In this document: piece after piece, positions 26,600 through 36,222 of the stretch
Position numbering within the stretch: position 1 is the first letter of the stretch
Layout of the letters: every line of letters starts with the position of its first letter
From: Actinomycetota bacterium
GTDB taxonomy: Bacteria; Actinomycetota; UBA4738; HRBIN12
Assembly: GCA_005885035.1 (NCBI GenBank)
Contig: VAXZ01000111.1
Location: 65,603 to 102,150, forward strand
Reading direction: 5' to 3'
DNA: 36,548 nt
The notes under the pieces: generated by a model
Databases searched by the model: none
What the model saw: only the letters and a program-made list of their open reading frames with translations
What the model was told of the DNA's origin: nothing
Translations under genes and position numbers: made by a program

Positions 26600-27424
26600 T
26601 CATGCTCCTCCGGCACGACCGAGCCGGCGGATCGCTCCCTCGAGCAGTTCCGCAAGGTGCAGGCCGCTGCCGGGCTCGTACCGGGCGGTGCCGACCGACA
26701 GCTTGAGGGCGCGCGGTCGATCGCGCCGGGCATCGTGCACGGCCATCGCCTCCACCAGGCGTGACAGGACGGTGGTCTCGGCGCCCTCCGCCTCACCGGT
26801 CAGCAGGATGCAGAACGTGTCGGGTGCGATCCTTCCCGGGACGTCGGAATCGCGGACGGAATCCAGCACCACTCCGGCGGCGTCGCGGGCGAGCTCGTCG
26901 GCCGCCTCCCTGCCGAGCGCAGCCTGGAGCGAGTCGTGCTCCTCGACCCGAACGAAGACGAAGACGACCGGGTTGCCCGCGCGATCGGCCATCCGCAGAT
27001 GATGCTCGGCGATGGGTGCGAACCCGCGGAGGGTGGGGAGCGACGTCACCTCGTCGTTCGCCGCGAGCTCGCGCCGCATGCGCCGGGTGGCGACCGCGTA
27101 CCGGATCGAGCGCGGCAGGAGCGGTCCGAGCAACTCGTCTCGCACGAGGTGGTCTTCCACACCCGCATGCATCGCGACTGCGCCGTCAGCCCTGCGGTCC
27201 GCCTGCGTGACGACGACCACCGCAGCGTCGGGCTCCACCGTGCGGACGCGACGGACGGCCTCCAAGGGAGCCTCGCTCTCGAGGGCGATCACGACGGCGT
27301 CGACGCCGGTCGGTGTTTCGATCACCGGAACGCGCTGAACGGCGAACCCATCCTCACGGGCGAGCGCGGCCACTTCGGCGTCGTCGAGACCGACGACGAG
27401 CACGCTCACCGGTTCCGTCAGCAT
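26600..27424 (-). CDS. Receiver-like plus degenerate GGDEF-domain protein
   Basis: ATG 27424: EPVSVLVVGLDDAEVAALARE... then EVTSLPTLRGFAPIAEHHLRMADRAGNPVVFVFVRVEEH...VPGRIAPDTFCILLTGE; APDTF occupies the GGDEF position. Confidence 0.7.
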   Translation of the reverse strand: MLTEPVSVLVVGLDDAEVAALAREDGFAVQRVPVIETPTGVDAVVIALESEAPLEAVRRVRTVEPDAAVVVVTQADRRADGAVAMHAGVEDHLVRDELLGPLLPRSIRYAVATRRMRRELAANDEVTSLPTLRGFAPIAEHHLRMADRAGNPVVFVFVRVEEHDSLQAALGREAADELARDAAGVVLDSVRDSDVPGRIAPDTFCILLTGEAEGAETTVLSRLVEAMAVHDARRDRPRALKLSVGTARYEPGSGLHLAELLEGAIRRLGRAGGA

Positions 27425-27500
27425 CTCCCCCGTCCCTCTCCGGTGGTCGTCGCGGAAGGCGCCGCGCATCATCGCACATCGGTAGGGCCGGCCACCGCCC

Positions 27501-27565
27501 CGAGCGCACCACTCGAGAGCGCCGGCCGAGAGCACCCGCCGAGAGCGGCGGCCGAGGGCGCGGCG
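27501..27565. repeat. Five imperfect 13-bp tandem repeats
   Basis: CGAGCGCACCACT / CGAGAGCGCCGGC / CGAGAGCACCCGC / CGAGAGCGGCGGC / CGAGGGCGCGGCG. Confidence 0.75.
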
Positions 27566-27626
27566 ACCGCCACAACCTCGCCACGGGAACGACACAGGGT
27601 GGCGGCCGCCGCGCCCTCGGCCGCCG
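27546..27626. promoter_or_regulatory. Long inverted repeat (28-bp arms, 27/28 pairing, 25-nt loop) in the leader of the LCP gene
   Basis: CGGCGGCCGAGGGCGCGGCGACCGCCAC (27546-27573) and GTGGCGGCCGCCGCGCCCTCGGCCGCCG (27599-27626). Confidence 0.75.
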
Positions 27627-27642
27627 ATACGCTAGGAAGCAC

Positions 27643-29085
27643 ATGGTGGATCCCGCTCCCGCCGCCAGGCGGCTGATCCGTGTCGCGATCGCCGTTTCCG
27701 CGTCGCTCTCCCTGGTCCTCGGCGTCGTCGGAGCGGCCAGCGCGGTCCGATGGGTGCAGCTGCGGGACGTCGGCATCGACCAAGGCTCGTTCAGCCCGGC
27801 GGTCCCTTCCGGCTCGTCGGCCCCGCCCACCGGCAGATGCTCGGAACACGTGTGCAACTACCTCCTCCTGGGCTCGGACTCGCGGGCCGGGCTGCCGATC
27901 GACGAGCAACACCAGTTCGGCACCAACAAGGACATCGGCGGCACGATCAGAACCGACACGATCATGCTCGTGCACACCGATCCGGCGCTCGAGAAGGCGA
28001 TCGTCCTTTCGTTCCCTCGCGACCTCTGGGTCGACATCCCCGGGCACGGCTGGAACAAGATCAACGCCGCGTTCGAGGGAGGTCTGCAGGGCGGTGGTCC
28101 GCAGCTCATGGCGAACACCGTCGCGAACCTGACCGGTCTGCCGGTCGACCACTACCTGTACGTGGACCTGGCCGGTTTCCAGCACGTGGTTGACACGCTC
28201 GGTGGCGTCGAGCTGTGCATCCCGCAATACGAGGTGAACACTCCCGGCTGGTTGATGCAGCACACGGGTGGAGGCGGCGAAACGAAGATCTACTACGGCG
28301 AGGTCGGCCACGTCGCCGACCCGAATACCGGCTTGGACGTCGTCCCGGGTTGCCACCATCTCGACGGCTACCAGTCGCTGGCCTACGTCCGGACGCGGAG
28401 CCTCCCCTGCGACGCGATCCCTGATTTCTCGCGGATCGGACGGCAGCAGCAGTTCATCCGGGCGGTGATCAACCAGATGCTCCGGCCGGCCGAGCTCGCG
28501 AAGGCACCCACCCTCGTCCAACCCGTGCTCGCGAACCTTCACCGCGATCGAGGGTTCCTGCCCGGTGATCTGGTGTACCTCGTCGGGCAGCTCCGCGGTC
28601 TCACGACGGGCAACGTCGAGTTCCGCACCGTGCCCGGTTCTGCGGGGATGGAGGGGACGCAGTCGGTCGTCCTCATGGACCCCGCCGCGCGACAGATCTT
28701 CGCCGCGATCCGTGACGGCAAGCAACTCGGGTCGCTCGGGACGCAGCTGGTCAACACGCCGCCCTCCGAGGCCAACACGACCGTGGAGGTCATCGACCAC
28801 GGTGCCGGGACTGCGGCGGACGACGTCGAGACGCTCCTCGCGAACTCGGGGTTCGACGTGTCGCCCGGGATCGTGAACGGTCCGGTGCCCGCGGGCGTCA
28901 CGCGGTCGGCGATCGTCTTCGCTCCGGGCCAGGATGCCTACGCCAACGTCGTCGGCGGCTACTTCCCGAGCCTTCCGCTCATCCAGTCGTCGAAGCTGCA
29001 GGGTCCCACCGTCGAGGTCGTGGTCACCGCGACGTACCACGCGGCACCGCCCACATCCGCCAGCACCTGCCCCGCTCCCGGATAG
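27643..29085 (+). CDS. LytR-CpsA-Psr (LCP) family protein with LytR_C-like C-terminal domain
   Basis: N-terminal TM; NYLLLGSDSRAGLP, GGTIRTDTIMLVHTDPALEKAIVLSFPRDLWVDIPGHGWNKINAAFEGG; C-terminal TTVEVIDHGAGTAADDVETLLANSGFDV. ATG 27643 preceded by aggaag. Confidence 0.9.
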   Translation: MVDPAPAARRLIRVAIAVSASLSLVLGVVGAASAVRWVQLRDVGIDQGSFSPAVPSGSSAPPTGRCSEHVCNYLLLGSDSRAGLPIDEQHQFGTNKDIGGTIRTDTIMLVHTDPALEKAIVLSFPRDLWVDIPGHGWNKINAAFEGGLQGGGPQLMANTVANLTGLPVDHYLYVDLAGFQHVVDTLGGVELCIPQYEVNTPGWLMQHTGGGGETKIYYGEVGHVADPNTGLDVVPGCHHLDGYQSLAYVRTRSLPCDAIPDFSRIGRQQQFIRAVINQMLRPAELAKAPTLVQPVLANLHRDRGFLPGDLVYLVGQLRGLTTGNVEFRTVPGSAGMEGTQSVVLMDPAARQIFAAIRDGKQLGSLGTQLVNTPPSEANTTVEVIDHGAGTAADDVETLLANSGFDVSPGIVNGPVPAGVTRSAIVFAPGQDAYANVVGGYFPSLPLIQSSKLQGPTVEVVVTATYHAAPPTSASTCPAPG

Positions 29086-29130: not shown

Positions 29131-30291
29131 GTGCGTGTCGTGGTCGACGCGAGATCCGCGGTCGATCCCCGCCGGACGGGGGTCGGGCAGTACACGCGGG
29201 CGGTGCTGCGCGCCCTGCCGCCCGCCGATCCCGACGCACGGTTCGTCGCGTGGTACCTCGATGTCCGCGGGATCGGGACACGACCTCGCCGCTTCGTCGG
29301 CTGGGCTCCGAACCTCTCCGAGCGGGCGTCGCGGCTGCCGACGCGACTCTACGGCCCGTTCAGTTCCCGGACGGGTCTCCCGAGACTCGAGTGGCTGGCG
29401 GGAACGTCCGACGTGGTCCTCGCGACGAACTTCATCCCCCCGCCCACATCTGCGCCGCGCGTCGTCATGGTCGTGCACGACCTGACGTTCGAGGTGATGC
29501 CGGAGACCGCCCCGCATAACGACATCCGGTGGCGGCGAGCGTTCGAGCGGTCCCTCGACCGCGCCGCGGCCGTGATCGTCCCGAGCGAAGCAACGAGGAA
29601 CGACCTCGACCGGTTCTACGGGACCGATGCTCGACGCGTGCACGTGATCCACCACGGCACCGACGCCGAGGCGTTCTCCCCGGCGATCCCCCCCCAGGTC
29701 GAACAGGTCCGCCACCGGTTCGGGATCAAGGGTCCGTACATCATCTTCCTGGGGGGTCTTGAACCACGGAAGAACCTCGGGTCGCTGGTACGAGCATTCG
29801 GCATGATCGAGGACCGGCGCAGCTCGTTGGTGCTCGCCGGAGGAACGGTCACCTGGGCGTCGGACTACTCGGAAGCGATCGATCGGGCGATCGCAGCGCT
29901 CCCGACGGACGTCCGTGCTCGGATCGTCCGGACGGGCTACGTGCCCGACGCCGACAGGCGAGCGCTCCTTTCGGGCGCGGAGATGCTCGCGTATCCATCT
30001 CTGTACGAGGGGTTCGGTTTCCCCATCCTCGAGGCATTCGCAGCGAACGTTCCGGTGCTGACGTCCAACCGCTCATCGATGCCGGAGGTCGCAGGGAACG
30101 CCGCGCTGCTCGTCGACCCCGACGATCCAGCCTCGATCGCGAAGGGGCTCGACGAACTGCTCGGCGACGATGACCTGCGGAACGTTCTCCGGGCGTCCGG
30201 CATGGCGAGGGTCGCGTCCTTCACGTGGGAACGTTGCGCGCGCCAGACGGCAACGGTGCTGGGACAGGCATACGCGTCGATCGGGGGGTAG
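29131..30291 (+). CDS. GT4-type glycosyltransferase
   Basis: DARSAVDPRRTGVGQYTRAVLRAL...IIFLGGLEPRKNLGSLVRAF...AYPSLYEGFGFPILEAFAANVPVLTSNRSSMPEVAGNAALLVDPDD. Confidence 0.9.
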   Translation: MRVVVDARSAVDPRRTGVGQYTRAVLRALPPADPDARFVAWYLDVRGIGTRPRRFVGWAPNLSERASRLPTRLYGPFSSRTGLPRLEWLAGTSDVVLATNFIPPPTSAPRVVMVVHDLTFEVMPETAPHNDIRWRRAFERSLDRAAAVIVPSEATRNDLDRFYGTDARRVHVIHHGTDAEAFSPAIPPQVEQVRHRFGIKGPYIIFLGGLEPRKNLGSLVRAFGMIEDRRSSLVLAGGTVTWASDYSEAIDRAIAALPTDVRARIVRTGYVPDADRRALLSGAEMLAYPSLYEGFGFPILEAFAANVPVLTSNRSSMPEVAGNAALLVDPDDPASIAKGLDELLGDDDLRNVLRASGMARVASFTWERCARQTATVLGQAYASIGG

Positions 30292-30306: not shown

Positions 30307-31062
30307 TCACGGGAGCGTTTCGGTGAAGCTCTGGTACAGGGCCGAGAGGCGCCGGCGGAGGGTCGCTGGCGCGCCGAGGTACCCCGCCCTGGCGCGAGAC
30401 GCGACGTCGTCGTGGAGCTCTTCGGAGGGTGGTCGTTCCGTCCGCCCGAGCAGAGGAAGCCCCGGCCCAACGCGGTCGCGCCAGTATCGCTCGATGAGCT
30501 CGTCCCTCGCCGAGCGGCCGCTGGCCGTGACATCGGGGGTGTCGAACGACGTCCCGAACCGTTGGTTGATCCGCTCGACCCAACCCTCGGATCCGTCGAT
30601 GACGTCCTCCGATCTGCTCACGACGATCCGGTCCCGGTACGCGAGGAGGGGTTCGTAGAAGCGGCGATAGCCGCGCATGGCCTGCCCCACGGTGAGGTCG
30701 GGCTTGATCATCACCAACCTCACGACGGCGTCCTCGGGCGCGCGTATCAGGACCAGAACCGGTATCCCCGCTTGGACGCCGGCGATCACGTTCGCGGGCG
30801 CGTGCGTGTGATGCGCGATCCTGATCGACTTCGACTGAGCCGCCAGGAGCGACGCGAAGGCCAACGAATTGCCCGAACGCGGGTACCCCTCGATCACGAT
30901 GTCGGTCGTCGGGGTGACCACCACACCGTGACCGCGTGCACGGGCCGCTCGAAGCGCGAGCCTCGGGAAGCGCGACGTCATGGTCATCACCTCGTACGCG
31001 GCCCGGCTCGCGAGTGAGCGAGCGGATGGAACGCTCAGGGTCCGCTCACGGACGCCGCTCAT
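30307..31062 (-). CDS. Sulfotransferase-like protein, paralog A
   Basis: DIVIEGYPRSGNSLA (PAPS-binding-like loop), HHTHAPANVIAG, VLVLIRAPEDAV, AMRGYRRFYEPLLAYRD; ATGA overlap with paralog B. Confidence 0.7.
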   Translation of the reverse strand: MSGVRERTLSVPSARSLASRAAYEVMTMTSRFPRLALRAARARGHGVVVTPTTDIVIEGYPRSGNSLAFASLLAAQSKSIRIAHHTHAPANVIAGVQAGIPVLVLIRAPEDAVVRLVMIKPDLTVGQAMRGYRRFYEPLLAYRDRIVVSRSEDVIDGSEGWVERINQRFGTSFDTPDVTASGRSARDELIERYWRDRVGPGLPLLGRTERPPSEELHDDVASRARAGYLGAPATLRRRLSALYQSFTETLP

Positions 31063-31820
31063 GCCCCTCGGCCCGCGATGGCCGCGTACACGGACTGGGC
31101 ACGCCGCCGTCCCCGTGTCAGCCGGGGGTCCCGGAATCGCTCGCGCAGGGCCTGCTTGATCCGCTCGCGCTCGTCCGAGGGCCGCGCGACGATCCGTTCG
31201 AACTCAGCACCCGTTCCGGCCCGCTCCCGGTAGTCGCCGGATATCCGGGCGAAACAGCGCTCCACGTTCTCAGGCGTGTGTCTGAACCGATCGAACGTCG
31301 ACCCGAACCGTTCGTTCACCTGTCGGACCACGAGCCCGAAGTCGGTCGTCACGTCCTCGAACGAGCTCACCACGAAGTCATCGCGGTAACGGAGCAACGG
31401 CGCGTAGAAGCGGACGTAGCCGCGCAGCGCCTGCCGCATGGACAGATGGGGGTGGCGGATGACGAAGGAGATGATCGTCGACTCGGGCTCGCGGACGAGG
31501 ACGAGCGCCGGGATGCATCGACGTGCCGCTTCGATCACCTGTGCGGGAGCATGGACGTGACACGCGACCTGGACCTGCCTTGTTTGTGTTATCTCGACGG
31601 CGACCACCGCGAACGTCATGCCGCTCCGTGGGAACGCTTCGATCACGAGCTCGGTGTCGTCGCCGACCGGGATCCCGTGGCGGCGACGGGCGATGGGAAG
31701 CGCCACACCGGGGTACTTGGCCACCACCGTCTTCGCCTCGAACACGGCTCGTCGGACCACGAGCAGCGGAAGAGACGGGCCCACCCTCCTCGTCGGCAAG
31801 GCGCGCTGGACGTCTTTCAC
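31059..31820 (-). CDS. Sulfotransferase-like protein, paralog B
   Basis: ELVIEAFPRSGMTFA, CHVHAPAQVIEA, ALVLVREPESTI, ALRGYVRFYAPLLRYRD; ATGA overlap with paralog C. Confidence 0.7.
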   Translation of the reverse strand: MKDVQRALPTRRVGPSLPLLVVRRAVFEAKTVVAKYPGVALPIARRRHGIPVGDDTELVIEAFPRSGMTFAVVAVEITQTRQVQVACHVHAPAQVIEAARRCIPALVLVREPESTIISFVIRHPHLSMRQALRGYVRFYAPLLRYRDDFVVSSFEDVTTDFGLVVRQVNERFGSTFDRFRHTPENVERCFARISGDYRERAGTGAEFERIVARPSDERERIKQALRERFRDPRLTRGRRRAQSVYAAIAGRGA

Positions 31821-32539
31821 GACGGTGATGAGACGAACGCGCCCAGGAGGCGTTCCGCTCGTTCGCGAAGGTCACTGAGGTCTCGGGCGCGGTACTCCTC
31901 ACCGAGCTCCTCCTTCAGGTCCTCACGGATCTTCGAAGGGCGTCCCACCTTGCGCTCGAAGGCCACGCCCGGGGGGAGGCGGGTAGCCCAGTCCGCTTCG
32001 ATCGCTGCGAAGGCCGAGCGCACGTTGTCATCGGTGTGATCGAACTCGAGGAAGCGGGTCCCGAACATGGCATTCACCTTCGCGATCACCTGCCCGAAGT
32101 CGGAGGTCACCTCGCGGAAGGGACCGACGACGACCTGGTCGCGGTAGGGCAGCAGCGCGCTGTAGAAGCGGAGGTATCCTCGCAACGCCTGTCGGACCGA
32201 GAGGTACCCCTTCGCGATCACGAATTCCAACACCGCATCCTCGGGTTCGCGGATGAGCGTTATCGCTGCGACGCGGGCCCGCACAGCAGCGATCACCTGA
32301 GCGGGGGCATGCAGGTGATGCGCGATCCTGACGGGCCGGTCCTGGGCCACGCGGAACGCGTGGACCGCGAAGCTGTTCGCCGACCGTGGGTATCCCTCGA
32401 TGACGATGTCGACGTGTGGATCGAATGGTTCGCCGTGTCCACGGAGCCGTGCGACGGGAAGTGCGAGTGTCGGCGATCGCGCCAGGAGGGTCTTCCCCTC
32501 ATACAGCAGACGGTTCGCAGCGTTCCGGACCGCGGGCAT
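31817..32539 (-). CDS. Sulfotransferase-like protein, paralog C
   Basis: DIVIEGYPRSANSFA, HHLHAPAQVIAA, AITLIREPEDAV, ALRGYLRFYSALLPYRD. Confidence 0.7.
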   Translation of the reverse strand: MPAVRNAANRLLYEGKTLLARSPTLALPVARLRGHGEPFDPHVDIVIEGYPRSANSFAVHAFRVAQDRPVRIAHHLHAPAQVIAAVRARVAAITLIREPEDAVLEFVIAKGYLSVRQALRGYLRFYSALLPYRDQVVVGPFREVTSDFGQVIAKVNAMFGTRFLEFDHTDDNVRSAFAAIEADWATRLPPGVAFERKVGRPSKIREDLKEELGEEYRARDLSDLRERAERLLGAFVSSPS

Positions 32540-32598: not shown

Positions 32599-33723
32599 TC
32601 ACGCTTCGTCGATCGCCAACCGATACGCCGCAACCAATCGCCGGGCCGTCTCGTTCGGAGTCAGACCTCGCGTCCGCTCGCGACCGGCTGCGATCAAGCG
32701 CGCGCGGAGCGTGCCGTCGTCGAGCAGTCGCAGCATCGCGTCCGTCCACCCCGCGACGTCGTCGGGATCGACCAAGAGCCCGGCGTCTCCGACGACCTCG
32801 GGGAGCGCGGTGGCGGATGATGCGATGACGGGACAACCGACGGCCATCGCCTCGGCGAGCGGCAGACCGTATCCCTCGTATCGCGAGGGATACACGAGCC
32901 CCACGGCGCCAGCGAGCAGACGGTCGAGCTCACCATCGGAGATCCTCCCCAACCGGCGCACGCGCTCGCCTAGGCCGAGCCGACGGATCGACGTTTCGAC
33001 CTCCGTCTCGCCGTTGCCCGGGACGGCGGTCAGCACCAGCCGCACATCCGGGTCGTCGCCGGCCACGCCGGCGAACGCCTCCAACAGGACCGCGTGATTC
33101 TTGTGCCGGTGGGTCGTCGCGGGATAGACGAAGTACCGCCCCTCCACCGGTGCCGGACCGGAGCTGTTCGCGTGGTCGGGTCCCGGGAACACGGGCGCGC
33201 TCACGACCAGGACGCGGGCCGGATCGAGCCCGAAGCGATCGAGCACCTGCTGCCGAACGTGATCCGAGGGCGTCATCACGACGGCGGCGGCGCGGGCTGA
33301 CGACGGCACTCGGGCGCGGAGGTAGGCGGCATGCGACCGGTTGAGGACCTGACCGCCGGCCATCGAGCGCAGATCGTGGATCGTGAGCGCGCTCGGCCGG
33401 TTCCGGAACCATGGGATCACGTCGTTGGGGTGATGGACCAGCTGAAGGTTCCTGCGCGACGCCTCGCGGGCGAGCCAGGTGGACTCCGTCGCGATCCGCA
33501 GCGCGCGGGAGGAGCCGTCGATCGGCGCCACCGCCGTCGGGTGTCGGGCGGTGAGCTCACCATAGGCGGCCGGGAACCGGCGGTTGCAGAGGACCGTGAC
33601 GTCGACGTCACCGCGTGCATCGTCGGCCAGCGCCCGGAGGAGCCGGATCGCGTACCGCTCGGCGCCACCGGCCGCGCCTGGCAGGAGCCAGAGGAGGTTC
33701 ATCCCGACGCGGATGCGGCTCAC
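32599..33723 (-). CDS. GT4-type glycosyltransferase
   Basis: GMNLLWLLPGAAGGAERYAIRLLRAL...YFVYPATTHRHKNHAVLLEAF...LVYPSRYEGYGLPLAEAMAVGCPVIASSATALPEVVGDAGLLVDPDD; GTG 33723 overlaps the upstream TGA by 4 nt. Confidence 0.9.
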   Translation of the reverse strand: MSRIRVGMNLLWLLPGAAGGAERYAIRLLRALADDARGDVDVTVLCNRRFPAAYGELTARHPTAVAPIDGSSRALRIATESTWLAREASRRNLQLVHHPNDVIPWFRNRPSALTIHDLRSMAGGQVLNRSHAAYLRARVPSSARAAAVVMTPSDHVRQQVLDRFGLDPARVLVVSAPVFPGPDHANSSGPAPVEGRYFVYPATTHRHKNHAVLLEAFAGVAGDDPDVRLVLTAVPGNGETEVETSIRRLGLGERVRRLGRISDGELDRLLAGAVGLVYPSRYEGYGLPLAEAMAVGCPVIASSATALPEVVGDAGLLVDPDDVAGWTDAMLRLLDDGTLRARLIAAGRERTRGLTPNETARRLVAAYRLAIDEA

Positions 33724-34820
33724 CGCGATGCCTCGACCGCTTCCGCGTAGACCGCGACCGCGAGCTCGGCGGACCGGTCCCACGTGAAGGTGGACGCGCG
33801 CGCCCTCGCCGCCGCGCCGAGCGCGGCGGCGAGGGCGCGATCGTCGATCACCCGCTGCAACGCTTCGGCGATCGCGTCGACATCGAGCGGATCCACCAGG
33901 AGCGCGGCGTCGCCCGCGACCTCCTCCGTCGCCGTCCCCGCCGAGGTCACGACGGCAGCGCCGTTGGCCATCGCCTCGAGCACGGGCAGCCCGAACCCCT
34001 CTGCAAGGCTCGGATACACGACCGCCGCCGCCTGGGCGTAGAGAACGTCGAGCTCATCCCGCGGCAGGTAGCCGAGGGTTCTGGCGCGACCGCGCAAACC
34101 ATCGAGCGCGAAGCCGACGTCTTCCCTCCACCCCTTCGGGCCGACCAGGATCAACTCCGTCTCGGCGGCGTCGAGCTCGCGGAACGCTTCGATCACGCGA
34201 TGCAGGTTCTTGCGCGGCTCCACCGTCCCGACGAACAGCACGAAGGGGCGCTCGAGCCGGTATCGCCGGCGGACCCGTTCGCTGAGCTCGGGTCGGGGCG
34301 GCCGCACGCGGACGCCCAGCGGTACCACCCGCAGCCGTTGCGCTTCGATGCCTGCACCCTCACACGCCGCCTTCGTGGCGAGGGAGGGGCACATCACGAG
34401 GCGTGCGTGGCGGCGCGTGAGCTCCAACCCCCTCAAGAGCACCCGTCGCGAGTGCCACGTGTAGTGGTGGGGGTACGTGAGGAACGCGAGGTCGTGAACG
34501 GTCGTCACGAGCGGCGCCTTCGACGGCGGCACGACGTAGCCCGCGTCGTGCACCACGTCGACGCGACCCGTCGCGCGCTCGATGCTCGGCGTCCGGAGCC
34601 ATTGCCAGGACTCGTACAGGGCCCGGCGGGGCAATGGGAACCGACGGATCGGCACGGGGGGAGCGAGCCCGGCGGCGGGTGGCCGCCGGTGCCACGCGGA
34701 GACGCCCACGAGGTCCAACCCGTCGCGGGCGGTCAACGCCCGCAGCAGCTCGACGGTCGCGACCGCGATCCCGCCCGGCACGACGTGCCAGGATTGTTCG
34801 ACCGTGACGCCGACGCGCAT
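33720..34820 (-). CDS. GT4-type glycosyltransferase
   Basis: MRVGVTVEQSWHVVPGGIAVATVELLRAL...FVLFVGTVEPRKNLHRVIEAFREL...VYPSLAEGFGLPVLEAMANGAAVVTSAGTATEEVAGDAALLVDPLD. Confidence 0.9.
   Translation of the reverse strand: MRVGVTVEQSWHVVPGGIAVATVELLRALTARDGLDLVGVSAWHRRPPAAGLAPPVPIRRFPLPRRALYESWQWLRTPSIERATGRVDVVHDAGYVVPPSKAPLVTTVHDLAFLTYPHHYTWHSRRVLLRGLELTRRHARLVMCPSLATKAACEGAGIEAQRLRVVPLGVRVRPPRPELSERVRRRYRLERPFVLFVGTVEPRKNLHRVIEAFRELDAAETELILVGPKGWREDVGFALDGLRGRARTLGYLPRDELDVLYAQAAAVVYPSLAEGFGLPVLEAMANGAAVVTSAGTATEEVAGDAALLVDPLDVDAIAEALQRVIDDRALAAALGAAARARASTFTWDRSAELAVAVYAEAVEASR
33799..33839. repeat. Perfect palindrome: 18-bp arms, 5-nt loop, inside a glycosyltransferase CDS
   Basis: CGCGCCCTCGCCGCCGCG-ccgag-CGCGGCGGCGAGGGCGCG, 18/18 complementary. 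Confidence 0.9.
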
Positions 34821-34941
34821 CCCGGAGGTGCTAGCGGGCACGATCGCATGCGTCTTCCGGCCGGATCACGGTTGGTACTCTAGCGAGCGCCGCCGGGACC
34901 GCTTCTTCCGCGGCGCACGTCTGGTCGAACCAGGAGGTCCG

Positions 34942-36222
34942 GTGCGCGTTTGCTTCGTCAACCTCTTCTATCCGCCCGATGTCGCTCCTTCGGGTTCGTT
35001 CGTCAAGTCCGTGGCGGAGCACCGGGCCGCGATGGGCGATGAGGTGACCGTCATCTGTGGCAGCGGCGCGTACCTGGGACGTGCGGCGACGCGCGCGTCA
35101 ACGTCCGCAGCCAAGTCGGGGTTGTTGGTGGAGGGCCCACGCGTCATCCGGGTGTGGACGCCGGGCCTGGGGAAGGCGAGCACCGCACGTCGACTCGCCG
35201 ACTACCTCTCGTTCCTGGCGGGCGCCGTGATGCGGCTGGTCCTTTCGCCGCGACAGGATGTCGTCGTCGCGCTCACCAGCCCGCCGTACGCGTTGATCGC
35301 CGCCGTCGCCCATCGGTTGGTGCACCCGCGCGCGCGGGTCGTCTACTGGTCGCACGACGTCTACCCTGACGCCGCCGAGGAGTACGGAGCGGTCCGCGCC
35401 GGCGGAGCCGTGTCGCGGCTGTTGCGATCGGTCCAGCGCGGGCTGCTCCGGAAGACCGATCGCGTGATCGCCCTGGACGACGCCATGCTTCGACGCACGC
35501 TCGCGTACGCGCGCGACGGCCTCCCGGCGGGCTCGGTGATCCCGAACTGGGAGCCGATGTCGCTGTTCCCGCCCGGACAGCATCCGGCGGCGTGGGAAGG
35601 CTACGGAGCGCCGGAGCTGGCGGGGCGGTTCGTCGTCTTATACCTCGGCAACCTCGGCTACGGGCACCCGACGACCACGATCACGGGAGCGGCCGAAGCC
35701 CTGGCGAAGGACGGCGACGTGACCTTCCTTTTCGTCGGCGGTGGTGTTCGGTATCCGGAGCTCGCAGAAGAAGCGAGGCGTCGCGGTCTCGATGACGTCG
35801 TGCTGCGCGGCTACGTTCCCAAGGACGTGACGCCGAGCGTTCTCGCCGGCTCCGGGTGCGCCTTGATCTCGCTCGACGACGGATCGCGGGGGATCATGAG
35901 CCCGTGCAAGTTGCATGCGGCGCTCGCGAGCGCGCTTCCCGTCGTCTACGTCGGCCCCGTCGGAACCAACGTCGACGAGGCGATCGAGCGGTACGGATGC
36001 GGTTTCTCCCTCCGCCACGGTGACGTCGACGGTCTGGCCGACGCCGTTCGTCGGCTCCGCGACGATGCTGAGCTGGCGGCGGAGCTGTCGCGGAACGCAC
36101 GGCGCGCGTTCGAGGACGCGTACTGCGACGAGCGGACGCTCCCGCTGTTCGACGAGCTCTTCCAGCACCTGCGCGAGCCGAGGTCGCTCTGGTCCGTCCG
36201 GACGGATCGGGGCCGGGCGTGA
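34942..36222 (+). CDS. GT4-type (WbuB-like) glycosyltransferase
   Basis: GTG 34942 with aggagg RBS: VRVCFVNLFYPPDVAPSGSFVKSVAEHRAAMGDEVTVICG...VVYWSHDVYPDAAEEYG...FVVLYLGNLGYGHPTTTITGAAEAL. Confidence 0.9.
   Translation: MRVCFVNLFYPPDVAPSGSFVKSVAEHRAAMGDEVTVICGSGAYLGRAATRASTSAAKSGLLVEGPRVIRVWTPGLGKASTARRLADYLSFLAGAVMRLVLSPRQDVVVALTSPPYALIAAVAHRLVHPRARVVYWSHDVYPDAAEEYGAVRAGGAVSRLLRSVQRGLLRKTDRVIALDDAMLRRTLAYARDGLPAGSVIPNWEPMSLFPPGQHPAAWEGYGAPELAGRFVVLYLGNLGYGHPTTTITGAAEALAKDGDVTFLFVGGGVRYPELAEEARRRGLDDVVLRGYVPKDVTPSVLAGSGCALISLDDGSRGIMSPCKLHAALASALPVVYVGPVGTNVDEAIERYGCGFSLRHGDVDGLADAVRRLRDDAELAAELSRNARRAFEDAYCDERTLPLFDELFQHLREPRSLWSVRTDRGRA

Follow-up and report, generated by a model that had tools for sequence, protein, structure and literature searches.

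The window, that is, the whole stretch of 36,548 nucleotides that was analysed, comes from the genome of a soil actinobacterium (assembly 86.8% complete) and carries three tandem sulfotransferase-like genes among genes for glycosyltransferases and a LytR-CpsA-Psr (LCP) protein. The features are as follows.

32539-31817, minus strand: gene 1, sulfotransferase-like, 240 aa, ATG start; PSB loop IEGYPRSANSF, HHLHAP, Arg97, and Glu105 at the PAPS 3'-phosphate serine position
32366..32395, minus strand: gene 1 PSB (5'-phosphosulfate) loop, residues 49-58, GYPRSANSFA
32225..32251, minus strand: gene 1 3'-phosphate motif, residues 97-105, REPEDAVLE
32225-32227, minus strand: gene 1 Glu105 codon
31820-31059, minus strand: gene 2 (middle), sulfotransferase-like, 253 aa, GTG start; canonical residues Arg110, Ser118 and His-x-His
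31817..31820, minus strand: GTGA stop/start overlap of genes 1 and 2, 4 nt
31467..31469, minus strand: gene 2 Ser118 codon, canonical PB-helix serine
31062-30307, minus strand: gene 3, sulfotransferase-like, 251 aa, ATG start; Arg115 at the serine position, C-terminal loop of low confidence in the model
31059..31062, minus strand: ATGA stop/start overlap of genes 2 and 3, 4 nt
30718..30720, minus strand: gene 3 Arg115 codon, replacing the PB-helix serine
32599..33783, minus strand: GT4 glycosyltransferase directly upstream of gene 1
33720..34841, minus strand: GT4 glycosyltransferase, upstream
34819..36222, plus strand: GT4 glycosyltransferase, start codon uncertain
29131..30291, plus strand: GT4 glycosyltransferase
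27313..29085, plus strand: LCP protein, start codon probably further downstream

The initial annotation described three adjacent genes of 240, 253 and 251 amino acids with a common block order. The coordinates bear this out, all on the minus strand, as does the alignment: genes 2 and 3 are 46 and 43% identical, respectively, to gene 1 over their full length. Consecutive genes are coupled by overlaps that the annotation had read as ATGA in both cases; this is correct for the second overlap, but the first is GTGA. In same-genus comparisons, dN/dS is 0.09-0.19 for gene 1, the lowest of the three copies, 0.23-0.36 for gene 2 and 0.29-0.51 for gene 3, with 0.15-0.32 for the neighbouring glycosyltransferases as a comparison; the LCP gene, for which the alignment was out of frame, is left out. 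All three are real genes under purifying selection and, as their ratios are well below 1, open reading frames on the opposite strand are very unlikely to be real genes. The source genome, as far as it is assembled (86.8%), displays no copies of the family beyond these three.

The two upstream glycosyltransferases (a GT4 pair on the same strand as the triplet), the LCP protein and the further glycosyltransferases named in the annotation are all present. The window ends where the contig ends. In a locus of the same genus (L005) the sequence continues with an ABC-2 permease and then an ABC ATPase whose C-terminal domain is that of Wzt, and a Wzt-type ATPase also adjoins the triplet of L006. A separate glycan locus of the Wzx/Wzy type is situated at the far end of the same contig (L105:322-13041; positions 322-13041 of C113 in the window's genome); it has two Sulfotransfer_3/1 genes, one gene resembling Gal-3-O-sulfotransferase and an initiating sugar transferase.

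Searched against Pfam and NCBIfam up to an E-value of 10, the window proteins give no match, and the curated cut-offs of PF00685 and PF13469 are not reached. Among 76 relatives, 14 are weakly matched by Pfam Sulfotransfer_1 (PF00685), the best with an E-value of 0.0017. Relatives are found at 79 loci in Actinomycetota, Cyanobacteriota, Pseudomonadota, Planctomycetota, Chloroflexota, Bacteroidota and other phyla, and the family is present in 20 of the 61 genomes sampled around the window. A search of phage and plasmid records for relatives of gene 1 found none. A literature search short of most subscription journals found no paper on the family or on such a triplet. The family is broad, bacterial and uncatalogued.

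The structure of gene 1 was modelled by AlphaFold2 with the 76 relatives (pLDDT 96.2). Compared with the PDB, all 50 matches listed are PAPS sulfotransferases, with E-values from 2.8e-5 and a probability of ∼1.00; the gene 3 model (pLDDT 90.9) likewise has only PAPS sulfotransferases among the matches listed, also at a probability of ∼1.00. The TM-scores of the fold search are 0.36-0.48, mostly below 0.5, with rmsd values of ∼7-12 Å, and the structural match is therefore to a conserved core and not to the whole protein. Profile comparison by hhalign of the family with 29 canonical sulfotransferases of related genomes gives a probability of 90.1 (P 1.8e-7, 231 columns), and a control profile of APS kinases gives 0.0. 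In the hhalign register, the P-R-S loop coincides with the PSB loop, Arg97 with the 3'-phosphate arginine and position 105 with the PB serine. Searching the PDB by sequence returned only chance matches to influenza hemagglutinin stalk helices and weak sulfotransferase matches, and these results were set aside.

PAPS sulfotransferases have been described by a PSB lysine or arginine, a PB serine and the sheet architecture, with histidine or glutamate as the base (PMC11625862), and SULT-type enzymes bind the 3'-phosphate through Arg130 and Ser138 (PMC4199319). The PRS of the PSB loop, with its arginine, is found in all three window copies and in 99% of the family. Arg97, which belongs to the 3'-phosphate motif and aligns with the canonical arginine, is invariant across the family together with Asn156, and Pro51, Arg52, His75, His77 and Pro201 are conserved at ≥90%. 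His75 and His77 (97-99%) immediately follow a strand and are candidates for the base. Asn156 of gene 1 falls in a V-N-x-x-F-G block. The sulfotransferase-like character originally proposed is thus supported at the family level by the predicted fold, the profile comparison with its control and the weak Pfam matches; PAPS-making genes in the same genome, and sulfotransferases or PAPS-making genes that adjoin family members elsewhere, further back this reading. The annotation would have been contradicted by a structure with no PAPS pocket, for example one with an unrelated P-loop kinase fold. The fold is the right one, but in two of the three copies a defining residue of the PAPS site is replaced.

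A search of the genome for cysND/cysC had been proposed as a check on PAPS supply. APS kinase and ATP sulfurylase are encoded, at sites not adjacent to the triplet. For CysD (PF01507) the only find was a partial sequence where a contig ends; the genome has ATP sulfurylase in its place. The genes for APS kinase and a type I phosphodiesterase/nucleotide pyrophosphatase overlap (L106:1394-3843; C113:21394-23843), the kinase start lying 4 nt within the other gene, which suggests that this pair is translated together. Co-occurrence of APS kinase across the relatives was considered as evidence and rejected; with the enzyme present in almost every genome of the order, it has no power to discriminate.

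Of the 79 family loci, 43 have GT4 genes nearby and 17 have other sulfotransferases nearby. Within the order, a PF00685 gene lies ≤10 kb from 5 of 28 family loci, where a rough estimate assuming uniform density predicts 0.57. A Fisher test on these counts takes no account of relatedness and is given no weight here. Family and canonical sulfotransferase genes are found within ∼10 kb of each other in five relatives (G005:C112, G006:C14, G013:C29, G003:C127 and G011:C88). The strongest functional links come from two neighbourhoods. The cultured species Kribbella antiqua (L026:8777-13690) has, consecutively, a GT4 gene, a family member, ATP sulfurylase and an APS-kinase fusion. The family gene of Thermobacterium salinum is overlapped by one of the Sulfotransfer_2 type, with APS kinase at a distance of 7 kb. 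The family open reading frame as called in K. antiqua overlaps that of ATP sulfurylase.

The family shares with PAPS-dependent sulfotransferases (PF00685/PF13469, including SULT and StaL/Teg12) the order of the core fold, the PSB loop, the 3'-phosphate arginine and a histidine predicted to be near the active site, and their PB-helix serine is shared by gene 2 and most of the family. It differs in being shorter (∼240 aa) and below Pfam recognition, in having arginine for lysine in the PSB loop, a His-x-His-Ala-Pro block and RPSxxR in place of an RKG-type loop, and in outer paralogs without the serine. The mycobacterial trehalose sulfotransferase Stf0 is also actinobacterial with arginine for lysine in the PSB loop (PMC11625862), but its substrate is trehalose, for sulfolipid, and no sequence match between Stf0 and the family was found in this analysis. 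Sulfotransferases of different subfamilies, XssA and XssE, are present in the surface polysaccharide (synechan) xss cluster of Synechocystis (PMC8205485), a bacterial example that has been studied well; this is a Wzx/Wzy cluster without a tandem triplet, and its sulfated product has been isolated and analysed. A further comparison is the wps-1 glycan cluster of the actinobacterium Actinoplanes missouriensis (PMC13390465, 2026), which has predicted sulfotransferases and an adjoining sulfate-activation gene. These are, however, two sulfotransferases of known families in a Wzx/Wzy-type cluster, with no tandem triplet reported. As the sulfated exopolysaccharide of A. missouriensis has been predicted without chemical proof, the remark in the initial annotation that sulfated glycans are little documented in actinobacteria is fair.

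The three copies differ at the serine that contacts the 3'-phosphate in canonical enzymes. Position 105 is serine in 74 of 87 aligned family rows, and all 13 exceptions are in the tandem clade; the 29 canonical sulfotransferases from related genomes all have serine. Six triplets from four genera were checked (the window, L004, L005, L006, L007 and L008), and every one displays the order Glu, Ser, Arg/Gly/Glu. The middle copies also have a C-H-V-H-A-P block in common, and in the tree those of the window's genus, L006 and L008, representing three genera, form one group (99/92); resolution is poorer for the outer copies. The C-terminal RPSxxR loop is weakened or missing in third copies, and is of low confidence in the gene 3 model. 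A dispersed fourth copy (L011:41-766), related to the third copy of L008 and found in the same MAG as that triplet, has aspartate at the serine position and is without the RPS loop. The duplication and specialisation envisaged in the annotation are backed by this copy-by-copy pattern and by the tree; that the copies act at different positions of a sulfated glycan is a conjecture. With Ser118, gene 2 carries the defining sequence features of a PAPS sulfotransferase, and of the three it looks like the ordinary enzyme. Genes 1 and 3 each miss one such feature and are therefore classed as divergent paralogs, not as confirmed PAPS enzymes.

The favoured reading, to which a probability of about 0.72 is assigned, is that all three genes encode PAPS-type sulfotransferases of a bacterial family not catalogued so far, and that these modify a surface glycan. 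PAPS would come from ATP sulfurylase and APS kinase, GT4 enzymes would assemble the glycan in the cytoplasm, the sulfotransferases would place sulfate on it, and a Wzm/Wzt-type ABC transporter would export it; attachment to the wall may be the work of the LCP protein. In the enzyme, the arginine of the P-R-S loop (Arg52 in gene 1) would hold the 5'-phosphosulfate and Arg97 the 3'-phosphate, and the near-invariant His-x-His region would be the source of the catalytic base. Gene 2 would sulfate the exported glycan. Genes 1 and 3 would be old, retained, specialised duplicates with other acceptors, altered donor handling or partner roles, and their activity is less certain because their donor site is changed.

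How the outer copies function can be seen in several ways. It is quite possible, if short of an even chance, that all three are active sulfotransferases acting on different positions or sugars of one glycan, and that the serine is dispensable. The old duplication kept across genera and the presence of the PSB arginine, Arg97 and His-x-His in all three window copies are consistent with this; the near universality of the serine elsewhere, in the family and in canonical enzymes alike, argues against it. A more tentative proposal is that the standard PAPS donor site has been abandoned in the outer two paralogs, which use another donor (e.g. APS, which is without the 3'-phosphate) or serve as non-catalytic subunits. 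If so, the triplet would be a composite sulfotransferase of one standard and two altered members. Somewhat unlikely is that gene 2 alone is catalytic, with genes 1 and 3 encoding pseudoenzymes that form complexes with it or bind glycan. Retention of the serine in the middle copy only, loss or weakening of the RPSxxR loop in third copies and gene overlaps that favour co-translation point in this direction, but gene 1 keeps the PSB arginine, Arg97, His-x-His and the RPS loop, and its glutamate is constant in all six triplets. As gene 1 is the most constrained copy despite Glu105, changed function is favoured over decay.

Two further alternatives concern the nature of the family and of the duplication. 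The PRSGN motif resembles a P-loop, and with no Pfam sulfotransferase match to the window proteins a P-loop kinase or other phosphotransferase might be considered; this is very improbable, given that no kinase is among the fold matches listed, that the APS-kinase profile finds no similarity and that the family has genomic links to PAPS synthesis. A recent duplication that serves gene dosage only, which the single operon and identical block order might suggest, is scarcely credible when the copies are merely 43-46% identical, have residues specific to each copy, and have middle members that group across genera.

To return to the family of PAPS-type sulfotransferases, coupled paralogs that differ at the serine in the same manner across genera represent a natural experiment on the role of this residue in binding the PAPS 3'-phosphate. 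It has been pointed out that current Pfam profiles may overlook bacterial sulfotransferases (PMC11625862). The present family, found across many phyla, escapes the profiles used for counting these enzymes, and glycan sulfation in non-marine bacteria and in actinobacteria is therefore probably undercounted.
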